A DNA stretch of 64,000 bases from assembly GCA_021325275.1 (NCBI GenBank), contig JAJPHL010000002.1, positions 62,001 through 126,000 of the forward strand. Direction: 5' to 3'. Below the pieces are notes generated by a model, which saw only the letters and a list, made by a program, of their open reading frames with translations, made no database searches and was not told where the DNA came from. Source of the DNA: Terriglobia bacterium (lineage in GTDB: Bacteria; Acidobacteriota; Terriglobia; JAJPHL01). A program made the position numbers and the translations under genes. Shown here in pieces: positions 4,649-39,362 of this stretch. Every line of letters begins with the position of its first letter. The first letter of the stretch is position 1.

Positions 4649-4683
4649 AATCCCGGCAGCACCCGAAGGAATCCCCTATCTTG

Positions 4684-5574
4684 TCAATCTTTGTTCCCTG
4701 CCTCACGCTCGGGAGCAGCGCTTTCCAAGGAAGCTCGCATCTGTTGTGCGGAGTGGAACAGTTTTTCAAGGTCGCGGCTTTTCAATCCGTCGCGCACTTC
4801 TTCCAATCGCTCGATCAACGCGCCGAGAGCCTCGGTAATGTTTTCGTGATTGGTGAGACAAATGTCGCGCCACACGCGATAGGAACTTCCGGCCAGTCGC
4901 GTGGTGTCGCGCAAGCCTGTGCCGGCGAGCCGTAAGTCGGCGGCGTCCTCGAGACCATCGCCGAGCGCGGCGGCCAAGGCAGTGGATGTGAGTTGCGGAA
5001 GATGGGAGGTCCACGCGACGATTTCGTCGTGAACGGCCGCATCGAGCACCAGGAGTCGCGCGCCGATCGCGGTGATCGCGTCCTGAAACGCGCGCGCGGC
5101 GGGCGTCGCGAGATCGTCGCGATGCCACGGCGTTAGCGCCCACGTCGCACCGGCGAACAAATCGGGCGTGGCAGCGTCGACGCCGCGTTGCTCCTTGCCG
5201 GCCATCGGGTGCCCGCCGATAAAAAGCGGTCCGCCGGCTTTGAACACCGCCGACGCCCGCTCGCAAATCATTTCCTTGGTACTGCCGGCGTCGGTCACCA
5301 CAGCGCCGGCAGGCGCGGCCGCCTGAACGCGTTCCAGCAGGTCGAAAATCGCGAGAACGGGTGTGGAGATGAAAACAAGATCCGCGCCGGACACCGCGGC
5401 TTCGACGGATTCGCACGCTTCGTCGATCGCGCCCAGTTCGAGCGCGCGCTTGGTGGACCCCGAGTGTCCCGCACCGCCCGTGCCGGCGACGCGAGTAGCC
5501 AATTTGTGTTTCTTGAGCGCGAGTCCAAACGACCCGCCAATGAGTCCCACGCCGATAATGGCGACGCGCTTCAT
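4684..5574 (-). CDS. tyrA: Prephenate dehydrogenase
   Basis: The 296-residue protein opens with an NAD(P)-binding Rossmann motif (IGVGLIGGSFGLAL, residues 6-19), has ISTPV near the end of the nucleotide-binding domain, and carries the family hallmark GGHPMAGKE (about 119-127), whose His binds prephenate. A helical C-terminal dimerisation domain follows. Length fits a monofunctional TyrA without chorismate mutase or ACT domain. It oxidatively decarboxylates prephenate to 4-hydroxyphenylpyruvate in tyrosine synthesis. It lies 32 bases downstream of the DAHP synthase gene on the same strand, so entry and tyrosine branch of the shikimate/aromatic pathway are cotranscribed. An arogenate dehydrogenase activity cannot be excluded. 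Confidence 0.93.
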   Translation of the reverse strand: MKRVAIIGVGLIGGSFGLALKKHKLATRVAGTGGAGHSGSTKRALELGAIDEACESVEAAVSGADLVFISTPVLAIFDLLERVQAAAPAGAVVTDAGSTKEMICERASAVFKAGGPLFIGGHPMAGKEQRGVDAATPDLFAGATWALTPWHRDDLATPAARAFQDAITAIGARLLVLDAAVHDEIVAWTSHLPQLTSTALAAALGDGLEDAADLRLAGTGLRDTTRLAGSSYRVWRDICLTNHENITEALGALIERLEEVRDGLKSRDLEKLFHSAQQMRASLESAAPEREAGNKD

Positions 5575-5606
5575 GGCTTCAAGAACGACAGGCGAGGACG
5601 CATGTC

Positions 5607-6626
5607 CTACTGTACTTCACGTTCCACGGCAACGGCGATCAGCCGCAATTCTTTCATCAGTTTCTGGAACATTGGCAGCGTCAGCGCCTGCGCGCCGTCG
5701 CTGAGCGCTTTTTCCGGCTGGTGATGCACTTCGATCATTAGGCCGTCCGCGCCCGCGGCCAGCGAGGCCCGCGCCATCGGCGCGACCTTATCGCGCAGTC
5801 CCGTGCCGTGCGACGGATCCGCGACAATCGGCAAATGCGAAAGCTTGTGGATCACCGGAATCGCCGAAACGTCGAGCGTGTTGCGCGTGTAATTCTCGAA
5901 CGTGCGAATGCCCCGCTCGCACAGAACCACGTCGCGATTGCCGCCGCTCAAAATATACTCGGCGGAAAGCAGCAGCTCCTCGATGGTCGCGGAAGGTCCA
6001 CGCTTCAAAAGAATCGGGCGTGTTACCTTGCCGAGTTCTTTCAGCAAAATGTAATTCTGCATGTTGCGCGCGCCGACTTGGAACATATCGACGTAGTTCA
6101 GCATCATGGGGATTTCGGTGTGGTCCATGACCTCGGAGACCACTTTCATCCCGTGGCGATCGGCGACTTGCCGCATGATTTTCAGGCCCGCTTCGCCGAG
6201 TCCTTGAAAACTGTACGGTGACGTGCGTGGTTTGAACGCGCCGCCGCGCAGCAACTTCACGCCTTCGGCCGCCAGCGCCGAGGCGATCGCTTCCATCTGA
6301 TCTTCCGATTCCACCGAACACGGTCCCGCCAGCAGCGGAACGTTTTTCCCGCCGATGGGCACGCCGCCCACACTGACGATGGTGTTCTGCGGACTAAACG
6401 TGCGTCCAGCCAATTTGTACGGCGTGGAAATACGGATGACTTCGTGCACGCCGTCAAGCAACTCGAGATCCCGCGGATCGACGCCGGTCTTGTCACCGCC
6501 GACGGCTCCTAACAATGTATGGCGAACGCCTGTGGAACGATGAATATCGAAGCCGAGCGACGTCAGGCGATCGATCACGCCTTGAATCTGCTTCTCGCCC
6601 GCACCCTCTTGCATTACGACGACCAT
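5607..6626 (-). CDS. aroF: 3-deoxy-7-phosphoheptulonate synthase (DAHP synthase, AroF type)
   Basis: The protein has 339 residues. Residues 1-70 form a small ferredoxin-like N-terminal domain typical of the Bacillus/Thermotoga-type DAHP synthases. The catalytic TIM barrel follows, with GPCSVES (about 101-107), LRGGAFKPRTSPYSFQG, the LKRGPSATIEE region, and ADPSHGTG (about 270-277) plus the IEVHHQPEKALSDGAQAL end motif. It condenses phosphoenolpyruvate and erythrose-4-phosphate, the first step of the shikimate pathway. The N-terminal domain suggests feedback control by an aromatic product. It is first in a minus-strand run with tyrA, and a repeat hairpin separates it from ispG. Confidence 0.94.
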   Translation of the reverse strand: MVVVMQEGAGEKQIQGVIDRLTSLGFDIHRSTGVRHTLLGAVGGDKTGVDPRDLELLDGVHEVIRISTPYKLAGRTFSPQNTIVSVGGVPIGGKNVPLLAGPCSVESEDQMEAIASALAAEGVKLLRGGAFKPRTSPYSFQGLGEAGLKIMRQVADRHGMKVVSEVMDHTEIPMMLNYVDMFQVGARNMQNYILLKELGKVTRPILLKRGPSATIEELLLSAEYILSGGNRDVVLCERGIRTFENYTRNTLDVSAIPVIHKLSHLPIVADPSHGTGLRDKVAPMARASLAAGADGLMIEVHHQPEKALSDGAQALTLPMFQKLMKELRLIAVAVEREVQ

Positions 6627-6822: not shown

Positions 6823-8062
6823 CTTTTTCGGCTGCGGTAGCCTCAGCTTTCGCGTAATGTGAATCAATATACTCATCGAGAATCTCGATGAACTCCGCGA
6901 CAATGCGATCGCCTTTCAGCGTGCGCAGCATCCGGCCGTCGACGAAGACCGGCGCTTTCGGTTCCTCGAACGTGCCGGGCAGGGAGATTCCGATGTTGGC
7001 GTGCTTCGATTCTCCGGGGCCGTTCACCACGCAGCCCATCACCGCGACCTTCATTTCCTCCACACCCTGGTAGCGGTCCTTCCACATCGGCATATTGTCG
7101 CGCAGATACGTTTGGATCTGCTCGGCCATCTCCTGGAAGAACGTGGACGTCGTTCGGCCGCATCCGGGACACGCCGTCACTTGCGGCGTGAAGCTGCGAA
7201 TACCCATCGCCTGCAAGATCTGCTGGCACACGATCACTTCTTCGGTGCGATCGCCATTGGGCGCAGGCGTGAGAGACACGCGGATCGTGTCGCCGATGCC
7301 TTCTTGCAACAAGATCGAGAGTGCCGCCGCCGAAGCGACAATCCCCTTCGCGCCCATGCCTGCTTCAGTGAGTCCCAAGTGCAGCGCGTAGTCGCAACGT
7401 TCGGCGATCATGCGATACACGTCGATCAAGTTTTGTACCACCGAAACTTTCGCGCTGAGGATGATCGATGTCTTCGGCAAGCCGTAATCCTCGGCCAGGC
7501 GCCCGGAGTTCACCGCGCTTTGCACCAGCGCCTCGCGCGTCACAGCGTCGGCGTCCATGGGGTTCGGACTAAGCGCGTTTTCGTCCATCAAGCGCGTGAG
7601 CAGCGTGGAATCAAGCGATCCCCAGTTCACGCCGATGCGCACGGGCTTGGAGTGCTTCGCCGCGACCTCCACCATGGTGCGGAAATTGTCGTCGTGCTTC
7701 TTGCCGATATTCACGTTGTCCGGATTGATGCGGTATTTCCCGAGCGCCTTGGCGCATTCCGGATATTTCGTCAGCAGCAAGTGTCCGTTGTAATGGAAAT
7801 CGCCGATGATTGGCGTGCGGAGCCCCATTTTCTCGAGACCCTCGACGATCGCCGGCACAGCTGCCGCCGCGGCGTCGGTGTTCACGGTCACGCGAACCAG
7901 TTCCGAGCCGGCGCGAGCCAGCGCCGCGCATTGGCGGATGGTGCCGGGGATGTCGGCAGTGTCGGTGTTAGTCATCGATTGCACGACAACGGGATGATTC
8001 CCACCCACGGTTACTGCGCCGATGCGAACCGGCGTGGTGGAGCGTCGTTTGATTTCAGCCAT
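6818..8062 (-). CDS. ispG: 4-hydroxy-3-methylbut-2-en-1-yl diphosphate synthase
   Basis: The 414-residue protein starts [28 protein letters not shown], the classical IspG N-terminus, with a TIM-barrel domain and a C-terminal [4Fe-4S] domain. The cluster cysteines are the two in ACPGCGRTT (about 300) and the one in [10 protein letters not shown] (about 345). It converts 2-C-methyl-D-erythritol 2,4-cyclodiphosphate to HMBPP in the MEP isoprenoid pathway. It overlaps the upstream ABC ATPase gene by 8 bases, so translation is probably coupled, although the functional link is not obvious. Confidence 0.96.
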
Positions 8063-8729
8063 GGATTTTTCCGTCCCTCATCAGCACCGTGCGGTGCGCG
8101 AATTGCGCGGCCTCGGGATTATGCGTGATCATCACGATGGTTTGTCCCAGGCGTTTGTTCAAATCCTCAAGTAATTTTAGAACGGCGTCGGAATTCGCGG
8201 TGTCGAGATTGCCGGTGGGTTCATCGGCCAGCAACACGGCCGGATGATTCACCAACGCGCGCGCGATCGCCACACGTTGCTGCTCACCGCCTGACATTTC
8301 CGCGGGCCGGTGATGCAATCGCCCCTCGATGCCGAGCAAGCGTACGATTTCCGCAAATTGATCCGGCTTGTAACCGTTCTTCGTTCCGGAAATGTCGCGC
8401 GCGATGTCGATGTTGCCTTGTCCCGAGAGCGACGGCAACAAATTGAACTTTTGAAAAACGAATCCGACTTTATTCTTGCGCAGCGCCGTGCGACCGCCGT
8501 CCGTTAGCGACGCGAGATCGAGCCCATCGAGCATGACGCGGCCGGAGCTCGGCGGCGTAAGTCCGCCGATGATGTGAAAGAGCGTCGACTTGCCTGATCC
8601 GGAAGGTCCCATCACCGCGACGAACTCGCCCGGCTCCACCGAGAAATCGACGCCTCGCAACGCGTGCACTTCCACGCGACCCGTGCTGTAGGTCTTGTGC
8701 AGATTCTCGACTTGGATGATGGCGGGCAT
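8055..8729 (-). CDS. ABC transporter ATP-binding protein, LolD/MacB type
   Basis: The 224-residue ATPase has Walker [10 protein letters not shown] (about 41-49), Q-loop [14 protein letters not shown], signature [13 protein letters not shown] (about 144-156), Walker [13 protein letters not shown] and the switch His in MITHNPE. The sequence pattern and the length are those of the LolD/FtsE/MacB family, whose members power mechanotransmission permeases rather than substrate channels. The gene follows its permease gene by 4 bases and overlaps ispG. With the permease and the DUF4292 lipoprotein it forms a three-gene unit. Confidence 0.93.
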
Positions 8730-8733
8730 TTCG

Positions 8734-9825
8734 TTATTCGTAAGCCAACGCCGCGATCGGATCTTGTTTCGCCGCTTTCACCGCCGGGTAGAGCGATCCG
8801 ATCATCGAGCCGATCAGCGCGATCACAGCGGCGATCAAGAACCACCACACGGGAATTTCGAACGTGAGCGTGGGCTTGGCCTTTTGGATCGCGTTCTCGA
8901 GCGCGATGCTCGCACCGAAGCCGATCACCACGCCGATCGCGGTGATTATTGAGACTTCCCGCATGATCAAGTTGGCGATGTAGACGCTCGATCCTCCCAG
9001 CGATTTCAGAATCCCAATTTCGCGCGTGCGTTCGAGGACGGCGGAATACATCGCAAGGAAAATCACTAGGAATCCGACCGAAACCGAGATGCCGATCATC
9101 ACGACCATGAAGGTGTTCACGGGATAGCCTTCCATGGTCGTCATCAGCGACGTAATTTCCTCCATCGAGTGGATGCTATAGCTCGGCAACAGCACGTTGA
9201 AAGCCTCGATGACGGCGGGAATGTTTTTCGGATCGTCGACCTTCACGTAAAACACCGACGCTTTGTTGTCGCTTCCATTCAATTCCTGCATGGTTTTGAG
9301 CGGCGCATAGAGGCGCGAGCCCTTTCCGCTGTCCACCACGCCCACGACTTTGAAAACGCGATTCAACATTTCGGCGCGATCACCGGCGTGTAGATGATTG
9401 TCGCGCGCGTAGAGATCGTCGATCAACAATTCCAGACCGCCTTGCAGATCGCGCCCTTCGGTGAAACGAAATCCGCCCGTGACTTGACGAAAGCGATCAT
9501 CGATACCGCCGATGAAGGTCAAGCCGCTCTTGTTGACCATCAACACCGGCGCGACCGCCGCGACGTGCGCCTCTTTGGCAAGCCGCGGACCGAGCGATTC
9601 GGGCATCGCCGCCGATCCGAATGTTGCAATATAGCTCGCGCCCGGCCCTTTTACCACAATGTCCGCGCCAATCCCCTTGGTGCGCGCCACGTTATCGTTC
9701 ACGAGACCGCGCACCAGTCCCACGGTGCTCAAGATCAGCAAGACTTCCAGCGCCACCGCGATCACGCTCAGCGCCGTGCGCGTCTTGCGGTATCCCAAAT
9801 TGTTCAACACCATTTGGTTGACCAT
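8734..9825 (-). CDS. ABC transporter permease, FtsX/MacB-like
   Basis: The 363-residue protein has one N-terminal membrane segment (about 15-38), a periplasmic MacB_PCD-like domain of about 200 residues, and three C-terminal membrane segments (about 245-270, 290-315, 330-352). It ends with PIAALAYE, typical of the FtsX-like permease family. This architecture belongs to type VII ABC systems (LolCE, MacB, FtsX). It lies between the DUF4292 lipoprotein gene and the LolD-type ATPase gene with gaps of 3-4 bases. Lipoprotein transport or macrolide/peptide export are both possible; the lipoprotein neighbour favours an envelope role. Confidence 0.9.
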   Translation of the reverse strand: MVNQMVLNNLGYRKTRTALSVIAVALEVLLILSTVGLVRGLVNDNVARTKGIGADIVVKGPGASYIATFGSAAMPESLGPRLAKEAHVAAVAPVLMVNKSGLTFIGGIDDRFRQVTGGFRFTEGRDLQGGLELLIDDLYARDNHLHAGDRAEMLNRVFKVVGVVDSGKGSRLYAPLKTMQELNGSDNKASVFYVKVDDPKNIPAVIEAFNVLLPSYSIHSMEEITSLMTTMEGYPVNTFMVVMIGISVSVGFLVIFLAMYSAVLERTREIGILKSLGGSSVYIANLIMREVSIITAIGVVIGFGASIALENAIQKAKPTLTFEIPVWWFLIAAVIALIGSMIGSLYPAVKAAKQDPIAALAYE

Positions 9826-9828
9826 GCG

Positions 9829-10707
9829 CTATTTCACTCCCGCTAGTTTGGCCGGCGTTTTTTCTAGATCCACCACTTCGGTTCCCGCGGGGATCGTGAG
9901 ATTGAATTTGTCGTCGTCGAGATCGCGGTTCAGTTCGATCTTCTGCACCGTCAGCTTGACGCCGTATTCGTCGGCGGGGCGCATGATGGTGATGGTGTGC
10001 GGAAACGAGATGCCGTGCGTGACTTTATAGTTTTCGTAGCGCGCGTCGGAGACGATGTCGCCCTTGGGATCGAAAATGATTTGCCGCGAGAGCAGCAAGG
10101 TCGTGCGATCGAACCACAAGTTGCGCGCCAGCAGGATATTGTTGCCGCGTCCCGCGAGCACGTGCACGATGTAGGTGGCCTTCTCCTCGTCGGTTTGATT
10201 CTCCAACACCGCGCGTTCGTCGGCCGCGATGGGTTTCACCACCAGCGCGTCATAGAGATGCTGCGGGCGGATCATTTCGAGTTTGTTGGCGCTGGGCCGT
10301 TCCATTTCATTTTTTCCCACCACCAATTTGTTTTTGGTGGGGAGATGCACCTTGAACTCCTTGCCGTCGGTGATCATGTCGAAGACGCGGCTGCCGACCA
10401 CCGGCAGTTGCCCGATCAAGCGGAACATGCCCGGCTTGCGGATGAGCACGAAAGCGCGAATTTCCTTGTACTGCTCGATCTCGCCCTTGTTGACCGAGCC
10501 CACGGAGGGCTCCAGGTTCACAGTGGCATTGATGGTGCGCACCTGCTGGTCCCACGCGCGGACCTTGCCCACCAAATCTTCCAGGGAAGCTGTCGCAAGT
10601 TGTCCGGAAGGAGCGCCGCGCCTGGGGATTCGCAACGTTCGGACAATGCAACCGGAAGTCAACGCCACCGTCACCAGCAAGGCTGGGAGGTATCGGCGGA
10701 TCATCAA
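9829..10707 (-). CDS. DUF4292-like outer-membrane lipoprotein (LolA/LolB superfamily fold suspected)
   Basis: The 292-residue protein has a signal peptide ending in a lipobox (VALTSGC, Cys at about residue 20), so it is probably a lipoprotein. The body is rich in beta strands, with LEDLVGKVRAWDQQVRTINA followed by KPGMFRLIGQLPVVGSRVFDMITDGKEFKVHLP. This pattern is typical of DUF4292 and LolA/LolB-like half-barrels that hold acyl chains. It is the first gene of a four-gene minus-strand run: lipoprotein, permease, ATPase, ispG. Together with the type VII ABC transporter it could be part of a lipoprotein or lipid trafficking device. The family assignment is from pattern recognition only. Confidence 0.75.
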   Translation of the reverse strand: MMIRRYLPALLVTVALTSGCIVRTLRIPRRGAPSGQLATASLEDLVGKVRAWDQQVRTINATVNLEPSVGSVNKGEIEQYKEIRAFVLIRKPGMFRLIGQLPVVGSRVFDMITDGKEFKVHLPTKNKLVVGKNEMERPSANKLEMIRPQHLYDALVVKPIAADERAVLENQTDEEKATYIVHVLAGRGNNILLARNLWFDRTTLLLSRQIIFDPKGDIVSDARYENYKVTHGISFPHTITIMRPADEYGVKLTVQKIELNRDLDDDKFNLTIPAGTEVVDLEKTPAKLAGVK

Positions 10708-10731
10708 GTTACAACAATATCATAGGCCCGG

Positions 10732-10820
10732 TTTTTCTCTGCGTCTCTGCGTTCTCTGCGTTGTAGAAAGCGTAGCCCTTTGGCTGGCGGTTTTTTTAAC
10801 GCAGAGAACGCAGAGAAAAA
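10732..10820. repeat. Hairpin repeat of CGCAGAGAA words
   Basis: TTTTTCTCTGCGTCTCTGCG and onward (10732-10762) pairs with AACGCAGAGAACGCAGAGAA and onward (10798-10820), about 23 complementary bases around a 35-base spacer. It lies in the gap between the stop of the 10826 gene and the start of the DUF4292 lipoprotein gene. A T tract flanks it on both strands, so it may terminate transcription. The word set matches the other repeats in this window. Confidence 0.75.
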
Positions 10821-10825
10821 TCGAA

Positions 10826-11278
10826 TCAGGCTAGGAAACGCTCTGCAAATTCCCGCGAATTCATCCGAACCTCCAACCACGACGCGAAAACATCGGGCGT
10901 TTCCATCCACACGCGGAACCATAGCGCGATTTCCTCGCGTTCTTTTCTGACGCCTGGATTCACACGCGGATTTCGCGCGACCAACTCCGCGGACTCGCGG
11001 GCCCGTCGCGCGGCGCGGATGCACGTTGCAGGTTCGGCGGCGCGGCGCGCGTCCAACTGCGCGATCGCTTGGGCGGCGCCGGAAAGCGTGTCGAACGCAA
11101 TGATCTCGCGGAATTCCCGCGGCAATCCGCCAAGAGACGCGTCAACTTCCACGCCACGCTCTTCGAGGACCGCGAGCAAATAGCGATCCGAGACGCGACC
11201 CTTCTCGCCGAGACGCTGGTGCAGCAAGCGGCGGATCGCGGCGGCGTCGGGCGCGGCCACGCGGATGCGGTGATGCAT
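10826..11278 (-). CDS. Unknown soluble protein
   Basis: About 150 residues from the ATG at 11278; a GTG at 11320 overlapping the upstream stop would give 164. There is no clear Shine-Dalgarno, so the start is open. The body is helical and Arg/Ala/Glu-rich, with RIRVAAPDAAAIRRLLHQRLGEKGRVSDRYLLAVLEERGVEVDASLG near the start and a C-terminal helix ending NSREFAERFLA. There is no signal peptide or membrane segment. It is the last gene after the TPR gene, mltG and ruvX, all on the minus strand. I do not recognise the family. Confidence 0.6.
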   Translation of the reverse strand: MHHRIRVAAPDAAAIRRLLHQRLGEKGRVSDRYLLAVLEERGVEVDASLGGLPREFREIIAFDTLSGAAQAIAQLDARRAAEPATCIRAARRARESAELVARNPRVNPGVRKEREEIALWFRVWMETPDVFASWLEVRMNSREFAERFLA

Positions 11279-11306
11279 CTCGATGTACTCGAGGATCAGC
11301 GACTTC

Positions 11307-12689
11307 TTACTTCTTTTCACGGGGCGGCGGGACCGCGCCGTACACAAACGCCGGCGTAATCGTCGAAAGCGGAATCTTGCCCCAATGGAGATCGACCGCC
11401 GGACGACGCGACGGAGCGGGCGCGAGAATCGGTCGCACCGGTTCGTCCGGCGGCGGAGCCGACGCGGGCGGAGGTACGGCGTTTTCTACAGGCGGCGGAC
11501 TCGGCAAACGATTCAGCGCCACAAGATCTCTTAGCGGTGCGCCGAGCGTCAAGCCGCTGAGCGCTGCGGCGGGAACCGTCGCGAGAGTCAATGACGGCGC
11601 CGGCGCGGGCGGAGGAGATTTCGGCGGTGCGGGGTCAGCTTTCTTTGGTTCCGGCCTTTTTTCCGGCGGCGGCAGGCTCTCCGCCACGTTCGTAACCGGT
11701 TTGGTCTCCACCGCGGGCGACTTTTCCACCGCTGCCGATGGCGGCAAGGGCGGAGGATCCATCCACAAAAAATCGCCGGCATCGGCGCCGAGGGTCAATC
11801 CACCGACGGCCAGCGGCGGGATCACAACCAAGTTAGCCGCCGCGGTCTTCACCGGAGGCGGCGCGGCGCCGGGCTTGCCCGACGACACCATGTTCTCCGC
11901 GCGCAGATCGGCGGCCAATGTTTCGTTGTTCGGGAAGACCATCAGCGCGCGAGTCAGCACGCCACGCGACGCGGCCTCATCGCCGCGCGCGCGATAGACC
12001 ATTGCCAGCACGCGCATCGGTCCTAGAGCTTTCCAATTCGTCAGGTCGACCGCGTGCTGCGCGTATTTCAACGCCCGATCGGGATCGGTTTGACGCAAGA
12101 AAACAGCCAGCCCCGAGAGCGCCACCGTGTCGTCGGGATCGCCGGCCAGCGCCACGTTCCAATCGAGCGCCGCTTGATTGATTTGACCGAGCGTCGCGAG
12201 AATATTCCCGCGCAGCGAACGCGCGTCGTTGCGTTTCGGCGCGATTTCCAACGCCTTGGTCACTTCCGCCAGGGCGTCCTGATAGCGATCTTCCTGCAAA
12301 AGCACCGCCCCGAGTTGCATATGCGATTGCTCCGACCGCGGACGCCTCTCCAGCAGGAAGCGCCATTCCGCCTCGGCGCGTTTCCAATCGCGGCGGGCCA
12401 TGTAAAGCTGCCCGCTCAACTCGCGCAGATCGAGATTGTCGGGCTCGTGCGCGATCAGCGGTCCCAGGTGCGCCTCGGCTTCAGCCAAGCGTCCGGTTTG
12501 AATCTCCATGGCCACGATGAACGGAAACGCGCGCGCATTGGTGGGATCATCTTTCACCGCGTCGAGCAACACTTTGTACGCCATCTCGTACTTCTCTTCG
12601 TGCATCAATTCGACGGCGCGATCGATGAGATCCTTTTGCGGCCCGGCTTGCGCTTGCATCAACGCGAAAATGAGAAGAAGAAAATGCAT
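11307..12689 (-). CDS. Secreted TPR protein with proline-rich C-terminal half
   Basis: The 460-residue protein begins with a short signal peptide (MHFLLLIFALMQAQA). Residues 20-275 are tandem TPR-like helical repeats, for example AVLLQEDRYQDALAEVTKAL and ALNPEDTV-type turns. Residues 285-460 are low-complexity Pro/Ala/Glu with runs such as PPPLPPS. A short motif, (A/S)GLTLGA, occurs twice, at about 292 and 385. TPR domains bind partner proteins, and the Pro-rich tail may span the envelope. It sits 3 bases after mltG and may belong to a peptidoglycan-related operon. The exact partner cannot be told. Confidence 0.8.
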   Translation of the reverse strand: MHFLLLIFALMQAQAGPQKDLIDRAVELMHEEKYEMAYKVLLDAVKDDPTNARAFPFIVAMEIQTGRLAEAEAHLGPLIAHEPDNLDLRELSGQLYMARRDWKRAEAEWRFLLERRPRSEQSHMQLGAVLLQEDRYQDALAEVTKALEIAPKRNDARSLRGNILATLGQINQAALDWNVALAGDPDDTVALSGLAVFLRQTDPDRALKYAQHAVDLTNWKALGPMRVLAMVYRARGDEAASRGVLTRALMVFPNNETLAADLRAENMVSSGKPGAAPPPVKTAAANLVVIPPLAVGGLTLGADAGDFLWMDPPPLPPSAAVEKSPAVETKPVTNVAESLPPPEKRPEPKKADPAPPKSPPPAPAPSLTLATVPAAALSGLTLGAPLRDLVALNRLPSPPPVENAVPPPASAPPPDEPVRPILAPAPSRRPAVDLHWGKIPLSTITPAFVYGAVPPPREKK

Positions 12690-30225: not shown

Positions 30226-30840
30226 TTATCGCTTGCCGCGTTTGCCGTTCGGATCAAAGAGAAACTCCAGATAGCGCCGCAAATGCTCCACACATCTCGC
30301 GATCACTTCGGGATCGGCGTTAGCCTTGGCGACGACTAACGCACCTTGAAACACCGCTTGCATGTGCAGAGCGAGCGTGTGGGCGAACCACGGAGCATCG
30401 ACGCCTCGTTCTTTCATCGCGGCGGCGATATCGGCTTCGACCATCGCGGTATGTTCCTCCATGGCTTTGGCGCAAGCTTGGCGGATCGCCGCGTGACTCT
30501 CGAACACCTCGCCAGCGACCATACCGATCGGTTCGCTGACGTCCGTGAGCGCCCCAGCAAGCTGTTGCTGGCGGAAATCCAGATAGGCAAACAGTCTGTC
30601 GATTGGTGTACCGACCGATCGGTATGTAGCGGACTCATAGAGCTTAGCCGTAGCTGATGCCGAGTGTTCTATGGCTGCGATGGCTAAATCGTCCTTGGTC
30701 TTGAAGTGATGGAAAAAACTACCCTTGGTAACGCCTGCGGCGGTGCAAATATCTTCGACCGAACTGGCGGCATACCCTTTGGTACGGATCGACTTAAGGG
30801 CGGCGTCCAGTAGCTTCGTACGGGACTCGGTGGCGCGCAT
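30226..30840 (-). CDS. TetR-family transcriptional regulator
   Basis: 204 residues from ATG 30840. The N-terminal helix-turn-helix runs from about 5 to 55 (TKLLDAALKSIRTKGYAASSVEDICTAAGVTKGSFFHHFKTKDDL). The ligand-binding helical part follows, with no recognised ligand. An operator-like palindrome overlaps its promoter, so autorepression is likely. No obvious target gene is adjacent; the genes on both sides run toward it or start far away. The in-frame TTG at 30855 lies in the promoter and is not a start. Confidence 0.9.
   Translation of the reverse strand: MRATESRTKLLDAALKSIRTKGYAASSVEDICTAAGVTKGSFFHHFKTKDDLAIAAIEHSASATAKLYESATYRSVGTPIDRLFAYLDFRQQQLAGALTDVSEPIGMVAGEVFESHAAIRQACAKAMEEHTAMVEADIAAAMKERGVDAPWFAHTLALHMQAVFQGALVVAKANADPEVIARCVEHLRRYLEFLFDPNGKRGKR
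30609..30624. promoter_or_regulatory. Operator-like palindrome inside the TetR gene
   Basis: TACCGACCGATCGGTA, halves matching at 7 of 8, resembles the operator overlapping this gene's promoter (30850-30865, 11 of 16 identical). A third short site ACCGATCGGT lies at 30523-30532. These may be secondary binding sites or codon coincidence. Confidence 0.35.
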
Positions 30841-30845
30841 GCAAA

Positions 30846-30874
30846 ACAATACCAACTGGTCGGTCTATTGTCAA
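30846..30874 (-). promoter_or_regulatory. Sigma-70 promoter and overlapping operator of the TetR gene
   Basis: On the minus strand TTGACA (30874-30869) is separated by exactly 17 bases from TATTGT (30851-30846). The spacer holds TAGACC...GGT, an imperfect palindrome that looks like an operator. The ATG at 30840 is 5 bases after the -10, so the mRNA would begin at the start codon. Confidence 0.7.
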
Positions 30875-30882
30875 GTCCGCCC

Positions 30883-31839
30883 CTACTCTGCGAAGTACAA
30901 GCGCCAGAATAGATCCTTGCCGCGATCATCTCGCTTAATCGCCTCCTCAGCTTCGCGAAGCGTGGGGATCACTGCGCTGAGATCGAACGGGAACGCATCC
31001 CGCATGGCTGACCACTGGCGCATCGCCCGGCCCACGCCGCGACACCAAGGGCCGGCTTGACCCCGCAGGATCGTTCGCGTGGCCCATAGAGCCTGCACCC
31101 ACGCGACGCGCGGCCACATTTCGCCGCTGGCGTATCGCGCCGCCAGCAGGAGCTGATGCGCCGTCATCCATTCGACCACTTTCGCCGGCATCCCATCACC
31201 CGACCCGCCGGAGCTCGCACCGCCCTCATGCCACGCCACGGCCATCGGTTCATACCAAGCGCGAAATCCGGCCAGCCGCGCCCGGAGGCAAAACTCGGCA
31301 TCTTCGAGATAGGCGAAGAAGCGGTCTTCCAGAACGCCGATCCGGCGAAACACATCCGCGGAAATCAGCGCGGCCGCAAAACACACTCCGAAGATCTCGC
31401 GGGGAACATCATAGGGAGCGCCGTCCGGCGCACCGTGACCCAGCCGCACTGCCGCAAGTCCCAGCGATAAAGCGTCGCCCGCTCCGTCGAGAAGCGCCGG
31501 CCGCCGCATCTGCAATGTGCGCCCGGTGCGCAGGTCGCCCTGCTCGCAGGCGCCCAGCAGCATTTGCAGCCACGCCGGATGCAGCACAACGTCGTTATTG
31601 AGAATCGCGATCCAATCGGCGCCCGCCGCCGCGGCGATCCCGCGATTCACGGCCGCCGCGAAACCATGATTGGCGCCCAAACGAATTTGGGCTAGCGTCT
31701 CGGAGCCGTCGGTCGATCCGTTGTCGACGACAATCACTTGATCGAACGGACGAATCTGTTCGCGCAGCGATTCCAGGCAGCGTTCGAGCCTTCCCGCGCC
31801 GTTCCAGTTGGGAATCACGGCGGCCACAACCGCCTTCAT
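30883..31839 (-). CDS. Family 2 glycosyltransferase
   Basis: ATG 31839 overlaps the stop of the upstream gene as ATGA, giving 318 residues. It has AVIPNWNGAGRLERCLESLREQ at the N-terminus, VDNGSTDGS and NNDVVLHP as the metal and nucleotide site, and GVLEDRFFAYLEDAEFCLRARLAG typical of rhamnosyl- or galactofuranosyl-type GT2 enzymes. It is the last gene of the minus-strand polysaccharide cluster. Donor and acceptor cannot be told. Confidence 0.9.
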   Translation of the reverse strand: MKAVVAAVIPNWNGAGRLERCLESLREQIRPFDQVIVVDNGSTDGSETLAQIRLGANHGFAAAVNRGIAAAAGADWIAILNNDVVLHPAWLQMLLGACEQGDLRTGRTLQMRRPALLDGAGDALSLGLAAVRLGHGAPDGAPYDVPREIFGVCFAAALISADVFRRIGVLEDRFFAYLEDAEFCLRARLAGFRAWYEPMAVAWHEGGASSGGSGDGMPAKVVEWMTAHQLLLAARYASGEMWPRVAWVQALWATRTILRGQAGPWCRGVGRAMRQWSAMRDAFPFDLSAVIPTLREAEEAIKRDDRGKDLFWRLYFAE

Positions 31840-32510
31840 CGCGCGAACCTCTTTTTGAACAGAAACGCCATGTTGCGCACGCCGTCGCGCCACGGTTCGA
31901 GTTTTTTCTCGCCCAAACGCGTCGAGTAGTTGATGATGATCTCGCGAAAACGGATGTCGCGGTTTCGGAGCGCCTCAATCTTGATTTCCTCGCTGAACGC
32001 CATGCCGTCGCTTTCCAATTTCATCAGCGGCAAAATGCGCCGCGCGAAGACCCACATGCCCGATTGCGAGTCTTTCACCCAGCGCAGAAACAAAATCGAC
32101 AGCACCAGCGACAACGCCCAGTTGCCGAAGCGATGTTTCCAGCTCATCGCCGCGCTGGTCTGCACGGGAAAGCGCGAGGCGTTCAGGAAATCGGCCTGCA
32201 GATGCTCGAACGCTTCGAGGAGATAGGAAATCCCGTCGACCGGATATGAATGATCGCCGTCGAGCGTGACGATCACGTCGCCCGTGGCGTGCTGGAATCC
32301 GCGCTTGTACGCGCGGCCGTAGCCGCGGACGTCTTCGCGGATCACTTCCGCGCCGAAACCGCGCGCCACGTCCGCCGTGCGGTCGGTGGACCCGTTGTCG
32401 ACCACGATAATCTGGTCGACGAACTTCGGCATGCGTTCGAGCACGCGCGCGATTCCCTCCTGCTCGTCGAGGCAAGGGATGATGACGGTAACGGAGTGGT
32501 TTTTGTACAC
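31836..32510 (-). CDS. Family 2 glycosyltransferase (polyprenyl-phosphate sugar synthase-like)
   Basis: The 224-residue protein has VTVIIPCLDEQEGIARVLERMPKFVDQIIVVDNGSTDRT, GYGRAYKRGFQHATGDVIVTLDGDHSYP (DxD), and no C-terminal membrane helices beyond one hydrophobic stretch (WALSLVLSILFL about 132-143). The layout is that of DPM1-like synthases that load undecaprenyl phosphate with a sugar. It lies 3 bases after the bifunctional glycosyltransferase gene. Confidence 0.88.
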   Translation of the reverse strand: MYKNHSVTVIIPCLDEQEGIARVLERMPKFVDQIIVVDNGSTDRTADVARGFGAEVIREDVRGYGRAYKRGFQHATGDVIVTLDGDHSYPVDGISYLLEAFEHLQADFLNASRFPVQTSAAMSWKHRFGNWALSLVLSILFLRWVKDSQSGMWVFARRILPLMKLESDGMAFSEEIKIEALRNRDIRFREIIINYSTRLGEKKLEPWRDGVRNMAFLFKKRFAR

Positions 32511-32513
32511 GGC

Positions 32514-34895
32514 CTATTGTGCCGGACGCGCGCGTTCCAGCGCCGCGCGGTATGACGCTTCCAAATTCTCGATCACGATACTCCAATCCCAACTCTTTTC
32601 GGCAGCGGCGCGGGCGGTTCGCGCGATTTCCATCGCGCGCACAGGATCATTGAACAACCCCGCGGCCGCGGCGGCGAACCCCGCGCCGTCGCGCGCCAGC
32701 AGCAACTCGCGGCCGTCCGTGCAATCCAAACCCTCCGCGCCCAGCGGCGTCGCGATCACCGGAATGCCCGCCGCAAACGCCTCCAGGATCTTTACCCGCA
32801 CGCCCGATCCCGCGAAGATGGGACATAGAAACACCGAGTAGCGCTCAAGAGGTTCCCGAATCTCCGCCACGCGACCAAGAAATCGCACGCCTTCGCTCGA
32901 AGCCAGCGCTTCCACTTCCGGAGTCGATTCAGCGCCGGCCACCACGAGTTCCGCGCCGGGGCACGCCTTACGCAGTTGCGGCAACATGCGTTGCACAAGG
33001 AATCGCAGCGCCTCGACGTTCGGCGCATGCTGAAAGTTTCCGATGAACAACGCCGTGCGGGCTTCACGACCCTCGAAAACCGGTTGGTGACCCGCGACGT
33101 TGACGGCTGCGCGGCACTCGGAACGCACGCGTGGCGATCCGCCGTTGCGACCGAGCACGCTTTCCAGCAGCCGCCCGTCGTATTTCGAGCAGGCATGGAC
33201 TTCGTCCATGCGGCGCAACATCCGCGGCTCATATTGCAAGGCACGCAACCACTCCACGAACGCCTCGCAGAACTCGCCGGCGCGGCGCGCGCGCAGCATC
33301 CGCCGCCGCGTCGCTTGAAAATATACGTCGTGCTCGAACAGCACGGTGGGCGTGTGCGCGAGCCCGCCGCCGTATTGTCCCAGTTGCGTGTACTCGATCT
33401 GCAAGATGTCGGCGTCGGAGCGAAACAACGCGCGCTGCACTCGCCGGCGGAAATCATCGCTCGAAAAACAACGAACCGCGTACGGCGTGAGTCCCAAGAA
33501 ATCGCCGCGGGGGCGATGCGGGCGATGCACGCACTCCACCGTGGCCGCATATTTTTCGAGATGCCGGTTCGTCTCCACTTCCTCCTCGCGATCGACGAAC
33601 GCCAGCACATGCACGCGGTGGCGCTGCGAGAGCGCCTTCACTGCTTGATACATGAAAACGCCGCCGCCGTGCGTCGGCGGATAGAGAGAGTACGGTGAGA
33701 CGAAGAGAATATCAAGCGGACCCGCGCCGGCAGGCCGCGCCGGCAAAAAGCGATCGCGATAAAAGCCCGCCTGGCTGCGATTCATCGCCTCCACGTCACC
33801 GATTGTTGCCAGCGATCGCGCTTGCCAGCGCGCGGCCAACGCAACGCCCCAGCGCCGCAACGCGCCCGCGTATCCCGCCAGCGTCGCGCGGGTCGGCGAT
33901 TCCCCGGCGAGCAGCGAGACAATGGGGCCGAACCACAGAAACAGGAAATGCTCGGCCAGCAGCCGCCAGGAGTGAATGTTCTTCCACACCATCAACACGT
34001 GATTGCGCTTCAGCACGGCGTCGATCTCAGCCGGGGAAAAGCGTTTGCCGATCGTCCCGCGATGCTCGTGATAGACGACGGCCGCCGGCTGATAGAGCAC
34101 TTGCCATCCGCGCTTCCACGCGGCGTAAGAAAGATCGGTGTCCTCAATGTAGAACGGATGAAAGAGCGAGTGAAATCCGCCCAGTTCCAAAAACATTTCG
34201 CGATCGTACGCCGACGATCCGCCGCCCGCGTAAAACGCGGGATAAACGCCGGGTGTTTCCTCGATCAAGTGGCCGACACGAAACAATCCTCCTTGGAACG
34301 AGCCTTCCGTGAGTCCCGTTTCCTCGCGGCGTTTGTTGGGATCCGAGAAAAAAATCTGCGCGCTTACGGCGAAGACGCCGGGTGATCCCCGAAAGCCTTC
34401 CAGTAGTCGCTGAAACGTGTCGGGCATCACACGCATATCGTTGTTCAACACCACCACGATGTCGTTTCGCGCCGCGGCGACGCCCGCATTGTTCCCGCCG
34501 CCAAAGCCGAGATTCTTTTCGAGCGCCAGCAAGCGCACCGTCGGGAAGGCGCGGTGAACGTATTCGGCGGTTCCGTCTTCGCTGGCGTTGTCGACGACGA
34601 TCACTTCGTTGTCGGGATGGAAGCGCGCTGCCACGACCACCGACGGCAAGTATTTTTCGAGGAGATCGCGTCCGTTCCACGTGGGAATCACGACGCTGAC
34701 AGCGTTTTCGCGGCGGGTCTTTTTCGGCGGAAGCATCGCGCGCCTGCCGAACAAAACCCACGCGAGATCGGCAACCAGAAAGCTGATCGCGTTCACAAGC
34801 AGCACGAACGGCATCAGCAGCAATGCCAAGAAGACGAGGAGCGCACGGAGAACAATCACGGAGTTGCTCCCAACTTTCGGCCGGTGCGATGCCAC
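32514..34895 (-). CDS. Bifunctional glycosyltransferase: GT2 and GT4-like domains
   Basis: The 793-residue protein starts with two adjoining membrane segments (about 13-55), then a GT2 domain (about 68-320: VVIPTWNGRDLLEKYLPSVV, VDNASEDGT, LNNDMRV, FYIEDTDLSYAAWKRGW), a linker, and a GT-B domain (about 395-785) with DILFVSPYSLYPPTHGGG at its start and ending in the FLCPIFAGSGVRVKILEAFAAGIPVIATPLGAEGL nucleotide-sugar loop of GT4. It can add two residues in one pass. It overlaps the upstream methyltransferase gene by 40 bases. Confidence 0.9.
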   Translation of the reverse strand: MASHRPKVGSNSVIVLRALLVFLALLLMPFVLLVNAISFLVADLAWVLFGRRAMLPPKKTRRENAVSVVIPTWNGRDLLEKYLPSVVVAARFHPDNEVIVVDNASEDGTAEYVHRAFPTVRLLALEKNLGFGGGNNAGVAAARNDIVVVLNNDMRVMPDTFQRLLEGFRGSPGVFAVSAQIFFSDPNKRREETGLTEGSFQGGLFRVGHLIEETPGVYPAFYAGGGSSAYDREMFLELGGFHSLFHPFYIEDTDLSYAAWKRGWQVLYQPAAVVYHEHRGTIGKRFSPAEIDAVLKRNHVLMVWKNIHSWRLLAEHFLFLWFGPIVSLLAGESPTRATLAGYAGALRRWGVALAARWQARSLATIGDVEAMNRSQAGFYRDRFLPARPAGAGPLDILFVSPYSLYPPTHGGGVFMYQAVKALSQRHRVHVLAFVDREEEVETNRHLEKYAATVECVHRPHRPRGDFLGLTPYAVRCFSSDDFRRRVQRALFRSDADILQIEYTQLGQYGGGLAHTPTVLFEHDVYFQATRRRMLRARRAGEFCEAFVEWLRALQYEPRMLRRMDEVHACSKYDGRLLESVLGRNGGSPRVRSECRAAVNVAGHQPVFEGREARTALFIGNFQHAPNVEALRFLVQRMLPQLRKACPGAELVVAGAESTPEVEALASSEGVRFLGRVAEIREPLERYSVFLCPIFAGSGVRVKILEAFAAGIPVIATPLGAEGLDCTDGRELLLARDGAGFAAAAAGLFNDPVRAMEIARTARAAAEKSWDWSIVIENLEASYRAALERARPAQ

Positions 34896-36211
34896 AAACT
34901 CGCGCGGATGGCAGCCAGTTCATCCGATTGCGCGCGGAGCCGCGCATCCAGTTGCGCAATGTGTTCGTTCAACTGCGCGGCCCAGTCGGCTCGCGATTGC
35001 AATTCGCGCTCAAGATCCGCCACCTGTTCGGCGCGGATCGTTTCGCGCCGTTCACACTCATGTTCGAGCGCGGCGACTTGTTCGAGTCGAGCCGTCTCGC
35101 GCCTCTGCATCTCTTCTCCCAGCCCTTCGATTTCGGCGTGCGCCGCAGCCAAGCGATCGCGCGCCGCGGCAATCTCGCCGTTGAGTTTCTCCGCCCACGC
35201 CGCGCGCTCCGCGAGCGTGGCTTCCAGCTTTTCGACTTCGCCTTGACGCTCCTCAATGCGCTCCTGCGATTCTCGCTGCAACGCCGCAATGTACTCGCCT
35301 TTTTCTTGCAACTCTGCGTTCAAGCGATCGGCCCACGCGCGGCGTTCGTCCAGTTGCGCTTGCAGATTGCGGATCGCTTCGCCTTTCTCGCGCAGTTCCG
35401 CTTCCAACTTCTCCGCCCACTCGCGGCGTTCGGCGAGTTCACGCCGCGTAGTCTCCTGAAACTCGGCGAGATCTTTTTCCAGCTTGTGAATGTGCTGCTC
35501 GCGCTCGCGCAAAACGTTGCCGCTTTCCGGCAGATATATGAAGGCGGCGGCGAGGATCGGCTGCGCCGAGCAGACCGCCAGGAAAAAGTGGGCCTGGTTT
35601 TTTCCGGGGCTCTCGCGTGGCGAGAACGCGGCGTGTCCACTGAGAGCTTCGAGCGGCGCGAAGGTAATCGCGGGAACGTGGTTCTGTTCCAGAATCTGAC
35701 AGTGCGCGAAGAATTTTCCAAGGAGATCGCGGAACTCGTCTTCGTCGTACTCGCAGGTATGAAAAGGATTGTGAAAACCGCGCTCTTCCGTGTAGAAACG
35801 GCGATTGGGCGTGGATACCAGCAGCACGCCGCCAGGACGCAACACGCGGCGCGCTTCCTTCAGAAATCCCGCAGGATCGCTGAGATGTTCGATGACTTCA
35901 AACGCCGTAATGATATCGAACGACGCGTCGACGGCGCGCAGCGCGCAAACGTCGCCTTGTTCGAGTTTCAAAGAGGAGTAATGCGCCTCGGCCCACGCGA
36001 TCGCTTCGGCCGATGCGTCGATGCCCGTGACATCGGCGCCGGCCTCCGAGAGCATCGCCGCGCCGTAGCCCGTGCCGCAACCGGCGTCGAGGACGCGCGC
36101 GCCCCTGATCCCGCGCAAAAAGTGCCGAGCGAACACGTAGCGCGACACGTGTTCCTGCCACAGGTCGGCGTCCACCTGTCCGGGAACGACGCGCTCGCCG
36201 GTGAATTCCAT
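34856..36211 (-). CDS. SAM methyltransferase fused to a long coiled coil
   Basis: In this 451-residue protein residues 1-215 form a class I methyltransferase: RVLDAGCGTGYGAAML (40-54), GADVTGIDASAEAIAWAE, FDIITAFEVIEHLSDPAGFLKEA, RVLRPGGVLLVSTPN. Residues 234-437 are unbroken heptads rich in Glu, Arg, Ala, Leu, about 200 residues (near 30 nm if one helix). The end reads ASLWHRTGRKLG, like the short tail that closes similar coiled coils in polysaccharide loci. In O-antigen systems a methyltransferase with a coiled coil (WbdD) ends the chain and sets its length. It lies between the Wzt-like gene and glycosyltransferases. No kinase domain is present. Confidence 0.88.
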   Translation of the reverse strand: MEFTGERVVPGQVDADLWQEHVSRYVFARHFLRGIRGARVLDAGCGTGYGAAMLSEAGADVTGIDASAEAIAWAEAHYSSLKLEQGDVCALRAVDASFDIITAFEVIEHLSDPAGFLKEARRVLRPGGVLLVSTPNRRFYTEERGFHNPFHTCEYDEDEFRDLLGKFFAHCQILEQNHVPAITFAPLEALSGHAAFSPRESPGKNQAHFFLAVCSAQPILAAAFIYLPESGNVLREREQHIHKLEKDLAEFQETTRRELAERREWAEKLEAELREKGEAIRNLQAQLDERRAWADRLNAELQEKGEYIAALQRESQERIEERQGEVEKLEATLAERAAWAEKLNGEIAAARDRLAAAHAEIEGLGEEMQRRETARLEQVAALEHECERRETIRAEQVADLERELQSRADWAAQLNEHIAQLDARLRAQSDELAAIRASLWHRTGRKLGATP

Positions 36212-36214
36212 TCG

Positions 36215-37558
36215 TTATCCCATTTGCACGCGGACTTCGCACGGCATGCGGAAATAGCCGTACATCTCGACGCGCTTCTGCATTTGCAGCGTCAGCGCAT
36301 TGTCGATCCAGTCGCACATTTCGTAGGCTTCGAGCGTACCGGAGGCCACGGCCGGCGAAAATGAAAAGTGCCCCGGATAGAGCACCGGCAGGCGCAGCCG
36401 GAAGTCGACGGTCGCGGTTTGTCCGGCGCGCATCGCGGGAAACGCGGCGTTTTCCAGCGCGGTGTTGGTGCCCGAAAAATCCACGCCCAGGTGATTGCGC
36501 AACATGAAGCCAACCATCGGTTGCGCGATCGATTCCTCGGCGCGCATTGTGATGCGCACAATAATTTCTTCGCCCGGTGGCAACACGGCCAACTTTTCGC
36601 CGGCCGCATCGAATGCTGCGATTCCCAAGATCTTGGCGCGACCCGTCCCGTAGCGATAGTCGACGTTGGGAATTGTCGTGACCGCCGCGATCTTTACCTC
36701 GGTAGGTTGCGCCGCCGCGGCTGCAGGCCCAGCCTTTTCTTCGGTGGGAGCTTCCACGACCTCCGGCGCTTGGTGATGATGCCGCAAGTAATCGACATCC
36801 TTGTTCACCATGAACGCCTGGTAGCGCTTGATCACGTAATCCGGATCGCCGCACTCCGCGATCTCGCCGTTGGCCAGCCACAACGCTTTTTTCGCCAGGC
36901 TCTTCACGTCGGCGGTTGAGTGCGTCACGTAGAGAATGGTCACGCCCGCCCGCTGCATTTCGTGAATCTTGCGCATGCAGCGCTGGCGGAAATAAATGTC
37001 GCCGACGGCCAGCGCCTCATCCACCAGCAGAATCTCCGGCGACACGTTAATCGCCACCGCGAACGCCAGGCGCATCATCATGCCGCTGGAGTACGTTTTC
37101 ACGGGGCGCGAGATGAAATCGCCGATTTCCGCGAAGTCGAGAATCTCCTGGTAGCGGCTTTCCACTTCCGCGCGCGTCAGTCCCAAGATCGACGCGTTGA
37201 GAAAAACGTTGTCGCGTCCCGAAAACTCGGGATTGAATCCGCTCCCCAGTTCGAGCAGCGCCGAGACGCGGCCCGAGCGCTCCAGCGTGCCCGAGGACGG
37301 CTGCAAAATTCCGGCGATCAATTGCAGCAGCGTGCTTTTTCCCGCGCCGTTTTCGCCGACGATGCCGAAAATGGTCCCGCGCTCCACTTCGAAGGTGACG
37401 TTCTTCAGGGCTTGAAACTCATCTTGCGCGGGCCGCTTGCCCCAGCGGAAAAGATCGCGCAAGCGCTGGCGCGGCGAGGCGTAAATGGGATAGGACTTCG
37501 ACAAGTCGACGCAGCGGATCGCCGGGGCGTGAGGCGTTGCGTGAGCGGCGGGGTTCAT
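36215..37558 (-). CDS. Polysaccharide ABC exporter ATP-binding protein, Wzt-like with C-terminal domain
   Basis: ATG 37558 gives 447 residues; it overlaps the permease stop by 4 bases. ATPase residues 13-250 carry Walker A GENGAGKST (68-76), YSSGMMMRLAFAVA signature and ILLVDEALAVGD Walker B. A linker rich in Ala/Pro/Glu (about 262-285) leads to a beta-sandwich of about 150 residues (to 447), as in Wzt proteins that recognise the modified end of a finished glycan. The partner is the adjacent Wzm-like permease. An upstream open frame is not coding. Confidence 0.92.
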   Translation of the reverse strand: MNPAAHATPHAPAIRCVDLSKSYPIYASPRQRLRDLFRWGKRPAQDEFQALKNVTFEVERGTIFGIVGENGAGKSTLLQLIAGILQPSSGTLERSGRVSALLELGSGFNPEFSGRDNVFLNASILGLTRAEVESRYQEILDFAEIGDFISRPVKTYSSGMMMRLAFAVAINVSPEILLVDEALAVGDIYFRQRCMRKIHEMQRAGVTILYVTHSTADVKSLAKKALWLANGEIAECGDPDYVIKRYQAFMVNKDVDYLRHHHQAPEVVEAPTEEKAGPAAAAAQPTEVKIAAVTTIPNVDYRYGTGRAKILGIAAFDAAGEKLAVLPPGEEIIVRITMRAEESIAQPMVGFMLRNHLGVDFSGTNTALENAAFPAMRAGQTATVDFRLRLPVLYPGHFSFSPAVASGTLEAYEMCDWIDNALTLQMQKRVEMYGYFRMPCEVRVQMG

Positions 37559-38480: not shown

Positions 38481-39362
38481 TTACGCGGCTCTCTCGAGCG
38501 GCACCCGTGCCTCGGCATGCGCGTTCATATCTTCGCGGAACACCTTCATGTCCTTCACGATCCCCACCAAGCTCAGCAGTTTCAGGATCATCCAGGTTAT
38601 GTCGTATTCCCACCACTTGTACCCCTGACGGGCCGACGACATGCAGTAGTGATGATTGTTGTGCCAGCCTTCGCCCATCGTGACAATCGCCAGGAACCAG
38701 TTGTTGCGGCTCTGGTCGGTGGTCTCCCAGCGGCGCGTGCCGATCAGGTGCGAGAACGAGTTGATGGTGAACGTGCCGTGCCACAACAAAACGGTGGAGA
38801 GGAAATATCCCCACAGGAGCAGCGGCCATCCGCCGATCAGGAACATGCCCACGGCGTACACGACGGTGGGCAGTACGTGGTACTTTTGCAGCCAGCGCAG
38901 TTCGGGATACTTGTAGAAGTCGGCGATCAGGCGCGGATCGTACTGGTCGTAGTCGTCGCAAAGAATCCAGCCGACGTGGGAGTGATAAATCGTGGTCCAC
39001 CACGGCGAGTGGATGTCTTCCTCTTGATCCGAGTAGCGATGATGATGGCGATGGTTCGCCGCCCACCACAAAATGCCCTTCTGCGCCGAAGTCTCCGCCA
39101 GGAAACCCATGCAGAACGCCCAGAAACGGTTCAGCTTGTAAGCGCGATGACTAAAGTAGCGATGATATCCGCCGGTCACGGCGAACATGCGCAGCGCGTA
39201 GGAGCCGAGCATCCACCAGACTAGGCCGGTGCGATAGGGCGTAAAGATGGCGCCGACGAGGGCCATGAGGTGAACACCAAAAAACAGAGGCGACGTACCG
39301 GAGAAATAGGCCTTCCACGCGGGGCGCTTCGAGCGTTCGGGAATTACGATCTGTGTGGTCAC
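38481..39362 (-). CDS. Fatty acid desaturase (acyl-CoA/acyl-lipid type)
   Basis: The 293-residue protein starts at GTG 39362 and has about four membrane segments. The three His boxes are HRYFSH (67-72), HRHHH (104-108) and HNNHH (about 240-244), which bind the diiron centre. The order and spacing are those of delta-9 acyl-CoA desaturases (stearoyl-CoA desaturase type). It introduces a cis double bond into acyl chains to set membrane fluidity. A -10 box TAGTAT at 39369-39374 sits 6 bases before the GTG, suggesting a leaderless transcript. Confidence 0.95.
   Translation of the reverse strand: MTTQIVIPERSKRPAWKAYFSGTSPLFFGVHLMALVGAIFTPYRTGLVWWMLGSYALRMFAVTGGYHRYFSHRAYKLNRFWAFCMGFLAETSAQKGILWWAANHRHHHRYSDQEEDIHSPWWTTIYHSHVGWILCDDYDQYDPRLIADFYKYPELRWLQKYHVLPTVVYAVGMFLIGGWPLLLWGYFLSTVLLWHGTFTINSFSHLIGTRRWETTDQSRNNWFLAIVTMGEGWHNNHHYCMSSARQGYKWWEYDITWMILKLLSLVGIVKDMKVFREDMNAHAEARVPLERAA

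Follow-up and report, generated by a model that had tools for sequence, protein, structure and literature searches.

We analysed a 64,000-nucleotide stretch of DNA from a Terriglobia bacterium of the Acidobacteriota (contig JAJPHL010000002.1, positions 62,001 to 126,000; hereafter the window), and focused on a minus-strand gene cluster that encodes, in order, the permease Wzm, the ATPase Wzt, a methyltransferase continued by a long helical coil (MT-coil), a fused GT2-GT4 glycosyltransferase and two further GT2 glycosyltransferases (Table 1). This gene order, proposed in an earlier note on the same DNA, is borne out by Pfam matches to all of its parts, as is the extra C-terminal domain that the note ascribed to Wzt. 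We consider it likely that MT-coil is a methyl-capping chain terminator of a surface glycan exported by an ABC transporter, and that its coil acts as a ruler of glycan length. The glycan in question is most likely the O antigen of lipopolysaccharide: LpxC is found in the genome from which the window derives, and the organism therefore makes lipid A. Wzy_C/ligase-type proteins are also encoded in this genome and are not diagnostic.

The N-terminal half of MT-coil is a methyltransferase of the generic class I fold, with columns that are invariant among 36 relatives (G5, E6, R7, G46, G48, Y49, G50, E108 and H109, among others). No kinase family is found among the Pfam matches of MT-coil, and the coil begins at residue 233, straight after the methyltransferase; there is therefore no space for the kinase domain that the earlier note had reported missing. 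An AlphaFold2 model of the monomer, built on a 36-sequence alignment, contains helices at residues 233-329, 344-437 and 439-447 (mean predicted local distance difference test score 83), with a low-confidence join at residues 330-343. The C-terminal 200 residues are thus modeled as helical rather than disordered, and if straight the coil would span 30.4 nm (205 residues at 0.1485 nm each), matching the earlier estimate of about 200 residues and 30 nm. The coil's tryptophan residues are spaced 28, 46 and 71 apart. The description of these residues as unbroken heptads is slightly inexact: the helical coil is there, but it has register shifts in addition to the low-confidence join. A COILS-type score marks residues 243-291, 308-374 and 411-439 (142 residues), yet shuffled sequences of the same composition, rich in E, A, L and R, score a mean of 74 and a maximum of 158 residues. 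This score, a rough guide only, was accordingly rejected as decisive evidence for a coiled coil. The decisive evidence is comparative, and comes from the way coil lengths are distributed among 112 relatives, where they are quantised at 3.52 residues.

The window's genome is the sole member of its family in the genome collection, and a single-sequence scan of the GTDB contig collection returned only distant methyltransferases. Relatives were gathered by genome searches at the order, class and phylum levels, which identified the methyltransferase in 27 of 396 phylum genomes (E<=1e-24) and in 141 of 399 class genomes (E<=1e-28), in the latter mostly as one copy per genome; about 160 loci were read among them. 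We defined coil length (L) as the number of residues between a start anchor, NVLRERExHIxxLE, and the C-terminal tail, SRWxRLGRxLGLGP, with hidden Markov models anchoring both ends. Across 112 relatives L ranges from 59 to 230 residues with a mode of 137 (21 loci, 9 genera), and the window's coil measures 180. When periods between 2 and 15 residues were scanned, the strongest signal fell at 3.52. Tested at a period of 3.5, the 83 genus-unique lengths have a Rayleigh R of 0.68 (p=3.5e-17), and the 42 distinct lengths one of 0.62 (p=8e-8). Put another way, 104 of the 112 lengths equal 0, 3 or 4 modulo 7, a residue set picked after viewing the data, which leaves the Rayleigh test unaffected. Control segments of the same loci, namely the methyltransferase length, the Wzt linker, the GT2-GT4 span and the glycosyltransferase C-terminus, have no such period. 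On a tree built from the methyltransferase alone, 18 of 20 sister pairs with unequal coils differ by 0, 3 or 4 modulo 7 (binomial p=1.6e-5), with differences between sister species that include 7, 11, 14 and 84 residues. A stricter rule, by which coils change by whole heptads only, is ruled out, as the period of 7 is weak and the actual period is 3.5. In left-handed coiled coils the a/d stripe returns every 3.5 residues (PMC5082667), and therefore only insertions and deletions that keep the stripe continuous survive. The observed period of 3.52 matches half a heptad of such a structure, and would be expected only of a continuous coiled coil. The coil has evolved as a continuous series of heptads between fixed ends: among L=137 orthologues from different genera, the coil averages 40% identity, against 65% for each of the two ends (start anchor and tail) and 57% for the methyltransferase.

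The DNA of some relatives points to how these changes arise. Tandem repeats are detectable in 12 of 112 coil genes, mostly with units of 21, 42, 54 or 84 bp (7, 14, 18 or 28 residues), and two repeat matches, of 12 and 18 bp, lie outside the main period set. Several repeats are near-perfect, including 84-bp units in L240 (100%) and L187 (96%), a 54-bp unit repeated 3.1 times in L159 (100%) and a 21-bp unit repeated three times in L146 (100%). Coil genes with 84-, 42-, 54- or 21-bp tandem repeats are found at L187, L196, L197, L240, L244, L165, L159 and L146, and the coils of the sisters L193 and L196 are exactly 84 residues apart. Mis-assembly of repeats is a risk here, as many of the relatives' genomes are drafts. 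These in-coil repeats suggest recent length changes that kept the register, and some coils have evidently been lengthened by tandem duplication of 84-bp (28-residue) units. The window's own coil gene contains no tandem DNA repeat, despite its tryptophan residues 28 apart.

Register would persist for oligomerisation alone, and quantisation therefore cannot tell a ruler from a scaffold. The same capping methyltransferase might use its coil to oligomerise and to recruit glycosyltransferases, with chain length set by enzyme stoichiometry or kinetics and not by the length of the coil. The recurrence of the 137-residue coil across genera at such low coil identity makes this unlikely in our judgment, as does precedent from WbdD, whose arrangement sets chain length and in which coil insertions raise and truncations lower the modal length (PMC5082667); the broad range and frequent change of coil lengths would nevertheless suit a scaffold, and polymerase-site occupancy also matters in Escherichia coli O9a (PMC11231755).

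The coil is linked to the cap-binding domain of Wzt. A Wzt with this C-terminal domain (Wzt+C) occurs in the locus of 111 of 136 coil-bearing methyltransferases, compared with 1 among the 24 that lack a coil (Fisher p=1.7e-13, with counts that are not phylogenetically independent), and the lone coil-less copy with Wzt+C nearby, L247, looks frame-broken. Five methyltransferases adjoin a Wzt lacking the C-terminal domain; four are coil-less and one (L081) has a short coil. Ten families combine the coil with Wzt+C, and several further families have coil-less copies. At the genome level within the class, Wzt_C is present in 139 of 141 methyltransferase-positive genomes versus 77 of 258 methyltransferase-negative ones. 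The earlier note had named two observations that would refute its reading, disorder in the C-terminal 200 residues and no association with Wzt C-terminal domains in related genomes; both were looked for, and neither was found. The gene order recurs as well: in 70 of 121 annotated loci, counting all families, Wzt+C lies directly upstream and GT2-GT4 directly downstream of MT-coil, on the same strand and closely packed. This order is near-universal in family f3, often with further GT2s after it. Adjacency of Wzm to Wzt is not a general rule, since family f3 encodes Wzm elsewhere; orthologues in its genomes (for example, L116 and L150) share 45-53% identity with the window's Wzm and are unlinked from the cluster.

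The closest solved relative of the window's Wzt is that of Aquifex aeolicus (8dku, 3.4e-82), whose cap-binding domain binds 3-O-methyl-mannose through a methyl pocket formed by L300, T346, A348 and W362, with N313 touching the ring oxygen (PMC9445017). The window's Wzt keeps N313, A348 and W362, and has serine in place of T346 and methionine in place of L300. Among 98 Wzt orthologues, N313 is kept in 85, serine or threonine at position 346 in all 98, A348 in 86 and W362 in 88. This largely conserved pocket supports a methyl cap, short of proof. It also makes improbable, together with the tracking of the coil and the cap-binding domain across at least ten families and the coil-less relatives that adjoin a Wzt without that domain, an account in which the methyltransferase modifies internal sugars or a reducing-end adaptor without capping, and in which its link to Wzt+C is one of gene neighborhood only. 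That account draws on the generic class I fold and on certain MT-coil genes that lie far from any Wzt+C (families f93 and f96). It is more improbable still that the coil serves to pass a conformational stop message from the capping domain to the polymerase, its length being free if register is kept as in phytochrome and histidine-kinase linkers, since long, repeat-expanded coils are uncommon in signaling linkers. Such a relay would have parallels in the quantised coiled-coil linkers of sensor-effector proteins (PMC9587094), and a transmitted stop signal was considered by the authors of work on WbdD (PMC3482155).

We propose that MT-coil acts as a terminator and ruler in the following manner. 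The methyltransferase would cap the terminus of the growing glycan with a methyl group, and this cap would halt elongation; the C-terminal domain of Wzt would then recognize the cap, and the capped chain would be exported through Wzm. The coil, presumably oligomeric, would form a parallel rod that places the methyltransferase ~25-31 nm from the C-terminal tail, and the tail would sit at the membrane beside the GT2-GT4, GT2 and GT2 glycosyltransferases. Only chains reaching the cap site would be terminated, and coil length would in this way affect glycan length. The tail is more basic than the coil, with a mean net charge of +3.8 versus -1.4 in coil windows, and its amphipathicity is not clearly higher (0.31 versus 0.27); we propose it as a candidate docking end for the membrane or the polymerase.

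Several observations weigh against this proposal. Coil length is labile, with at least 69 changes on the 112-tip tree, a variability for which a strict ruler, if strongly selected, would have no need. The tail, though basic, does not form a clear amphipathic membrane helix. In the window's Wzt, the His350 contact of the A. aeolicus protein is replaced by alanine, and a paralogous Wzt in the same genome (L005) also keeps the equivalents of W362, N313 and A348; these residues may therefore mark the fold of the domain and not this particular cap. No Wzt+C lies within ~6 kb of the MT-coil genes of families f93 and f96. Where relatives fuse MT-coil to a GT2, the fused modules are not orthologous to the window's GT2 and give weaker matches.

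Table 1. Features of the proposed glycan export and assembly cluster, with coordinates in the window
Feature	Coordinates	Strand	Evidence
Fatty acid desaturase, before the cluster	38481..39362	(-)	
Wzm, ABC-2 permease, 266 aa	37555..38355	(-)	PF01061 3.2e-17
Wzt, ATPase with C-terminal cap-binding domain, 447 aa	36215..37558	(-)	PF00005 (ABC_tran) 5e-24; Wzt_C PF14524 1.9e-28
Wzt cap-binding domain (CBD), residues 301-438	36245..36658	(-)	match to A. aeolicus CBD 8dky/6o14, ~1e-7
MT-coil protein, 451 aa	34856..36211	(-)	Methyltransf_11 PF08241 3e-25 at residues 41-131
Class I S-adenosylmethionine-dependent methyltransferase domain, MT-coil residues 1-226, N-terminal motif FTGERVVPG	35534..36211	(-)	PF08241 3e-25
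MT-coil coiled coil, residues 233-437, 28-residue ERxxWAxxLxxEL units	34901..35515	(-)	AlphaFold2 helices, COILS-type segments, tryptophan spacing, length quantisation in relatives
Conserved basic C-terminal tail of MT-coil, SLWHRTGRKLGATP (family consensus SRWxRLGRxLGLGP)	34859..34900	(-)	conservation and charge
GT2-GT4 fusion glycosyltransferase, hydrophobic N-terminus	32514..34895	(-)	PF00535 4e-23; PF13692 2.3e-24
GT2, AglJ / dolichyl-phosphate hexosyltransferase-like	31836..32510	(-)	PF00535 2.9e-24; TIGR04182 1.2e-34, below its cut-off
GT2	30883..31893	(-)	PF00535 1.3e-20
TetR-type regulator, after the cluster	30226..30855	(-)	

The ATG of Wzt overlaps the Wzm stop codon (ATGA), and the true start of GT2-GT4 probably lies within 34859-34895. 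A TetR-type regulator follows the last GT2, a fatty acid desaturase precedes Wzm on the same strand, and orthologues of the AglJ-like GT2 sit downstream of GT2-GT4 in relatives. Other loci vary the theme. MT-coil is fused to GT2-GT4 in L074-L076, to GT4 in L068 and L070 and to GT2 in L200, L201 and L203-L205, and in L198 GT2 and GT4 are separate genes. We rejected these fusions as a Rosetta stone for the pairing of MT-coil and GT2-GT4 in the window, as the fused GT2 is not an orthologue of GT2-GT4 and some loci hold both. The genome of the window itself encodes a second Wzm, Wzt+C and methyltransferase cluster (L005, G000:C50:82000-101900, at 7481-11404) in which the predicted coil is N-terminal to the methyltransferase, the reverse of the MT-coil architecture; in L138, a 491-aa methyltransferase similar to this one (4510-5985) lies ahead of the MT-coil gene. 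In L081 (G291:C34, 4666-6402, minus strand), a Wzt ATPase without the C-terminal domain is apparently fused to a methyltransferase domain (residues 387-480); its neighbor is a methyltransferase of the FTGER type whose coil is short. In L116, the gene preceding Wzt is ParB/ParA-like by sequence. Genus g267 of family f96 has lost the methyltransferase coil, with at most ~41 residues after the anchor motif (L172, L186, L209-L211, L237, L238, L241 and L242), and no Wzt+C lies near these same loci; its sister genera g289, g303 and g317 retain the coil.

Compared with known systems, MT-coil is best filed with the coiled-coil chain terminators of ABC-transporter-dependent pathways (the WbdD, WbbB, O4 and O7 kind), as a kinase-less member whose capping activity we infer. 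Like WbdD of E. coli O9a and Klebsiella pneumoniae O3, it has an N-terminal methyltransferase, a long coil and a partner Wzt with a cap-binding domain, and in those proteins too the C-terminal region is proposed to dock to the membrane and polymerase. The O9a and O3 proteins differ in carrying a kinase between the methyltransferase and the coil, in a coil of ~20 nm as opposed to ~25-31 nm, and in working with the polymerase WbdA, where the window encodes the GT2-GT4 fusion and GT2s. Kinase-less precedents are found in WbdD of E. coli O8, a methyltransferase-only form (PMC3482155), and of K. pneumoniae O5, which share with the window a coil, a Wzt cap-binding domain and a methyl cap without phosphate (PMC3482155, PMC11231755), the cap being putative in our case; the polymerase differs, and the methyltransferase probably belongs to another lineage. 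The label "WbdD-like" given in the earlier note is therefore apt for the logic of the system, a methyltransferase and coil beside Wzt+C, and may not extend to membership in the WbdD methyltransferase family: WbdD is absent from the 60 best PDB sequence matches and the 50 best fold matches listed for MT-coil, with no direct alignment made. In K. pneumoniae O7 (ORF6) and O12 (WbbB), fusion proteins hold the terminator at the end of a coil, far from the polymerase (PMC11231755); that some relatives likewise join MT-coil to GT2 or GT2-GT4 speaks for the proposed arrangement. Relatives of MT-coil (L068, L070, L074-L076, L200-L205) are fused to GT2 and/or GT4 in the same order, and the range of module arrangements among relatives is the one reported for terminators of the K. 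pneumoniae O antigens (PMC11231755). The window's MT-coil is unfused, in O7 ORF6 the methyltransferase and the coil are separated by a kinase and a carbohydrate-binding module, and O12 WbbB adds a 3-deoxy-D-manno-oct-2-ulosonic acid (Kdo) cap. The A. aeolicus WzmWzt transporter, with its recognition of a 3-O-methyl cap, remains the nearest structural counterpart on the export side.

Mann, Kimber and Whitfield (2019) surveyed the chemistry of glycan chain termination and the binding modules linked to Wzt, to judge from the citation of that survey in PMC11231755. In the literature collection that we searched, we found no paper on such terminators in this bacterial group or on quantised ruler length. 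This kind of terminator is already known; what is unusual here is that nature offers a set of candidate rulers whose lengths vary in steps. The ruler model has so far been based on a few enterobacterial systems and on engineered WbdD mutants. With 112 orthologous candidate rulers of fixed ends, spanning ~13 to 39 nm, the idea becomes directly testable: if glycan length tracks coil length across the series, the ruler model would be confirmed in nature, and if not, it would be limited to WbdD. Half-heptad quantisation also provides a simple test, requiring only sequences, for a rigid coiled coil in helical linkers of variable length. More tentatively, surface glycan length may be an evolvable, stepwise trait in this bacterial class, in which 28-residue (84-bp) or single-heptad units are gained and lost by tandem duplication, always in register, and in which rulers of ~13 to 39 nm would give related species, and possibly strains, glycans of correspondingly different length.

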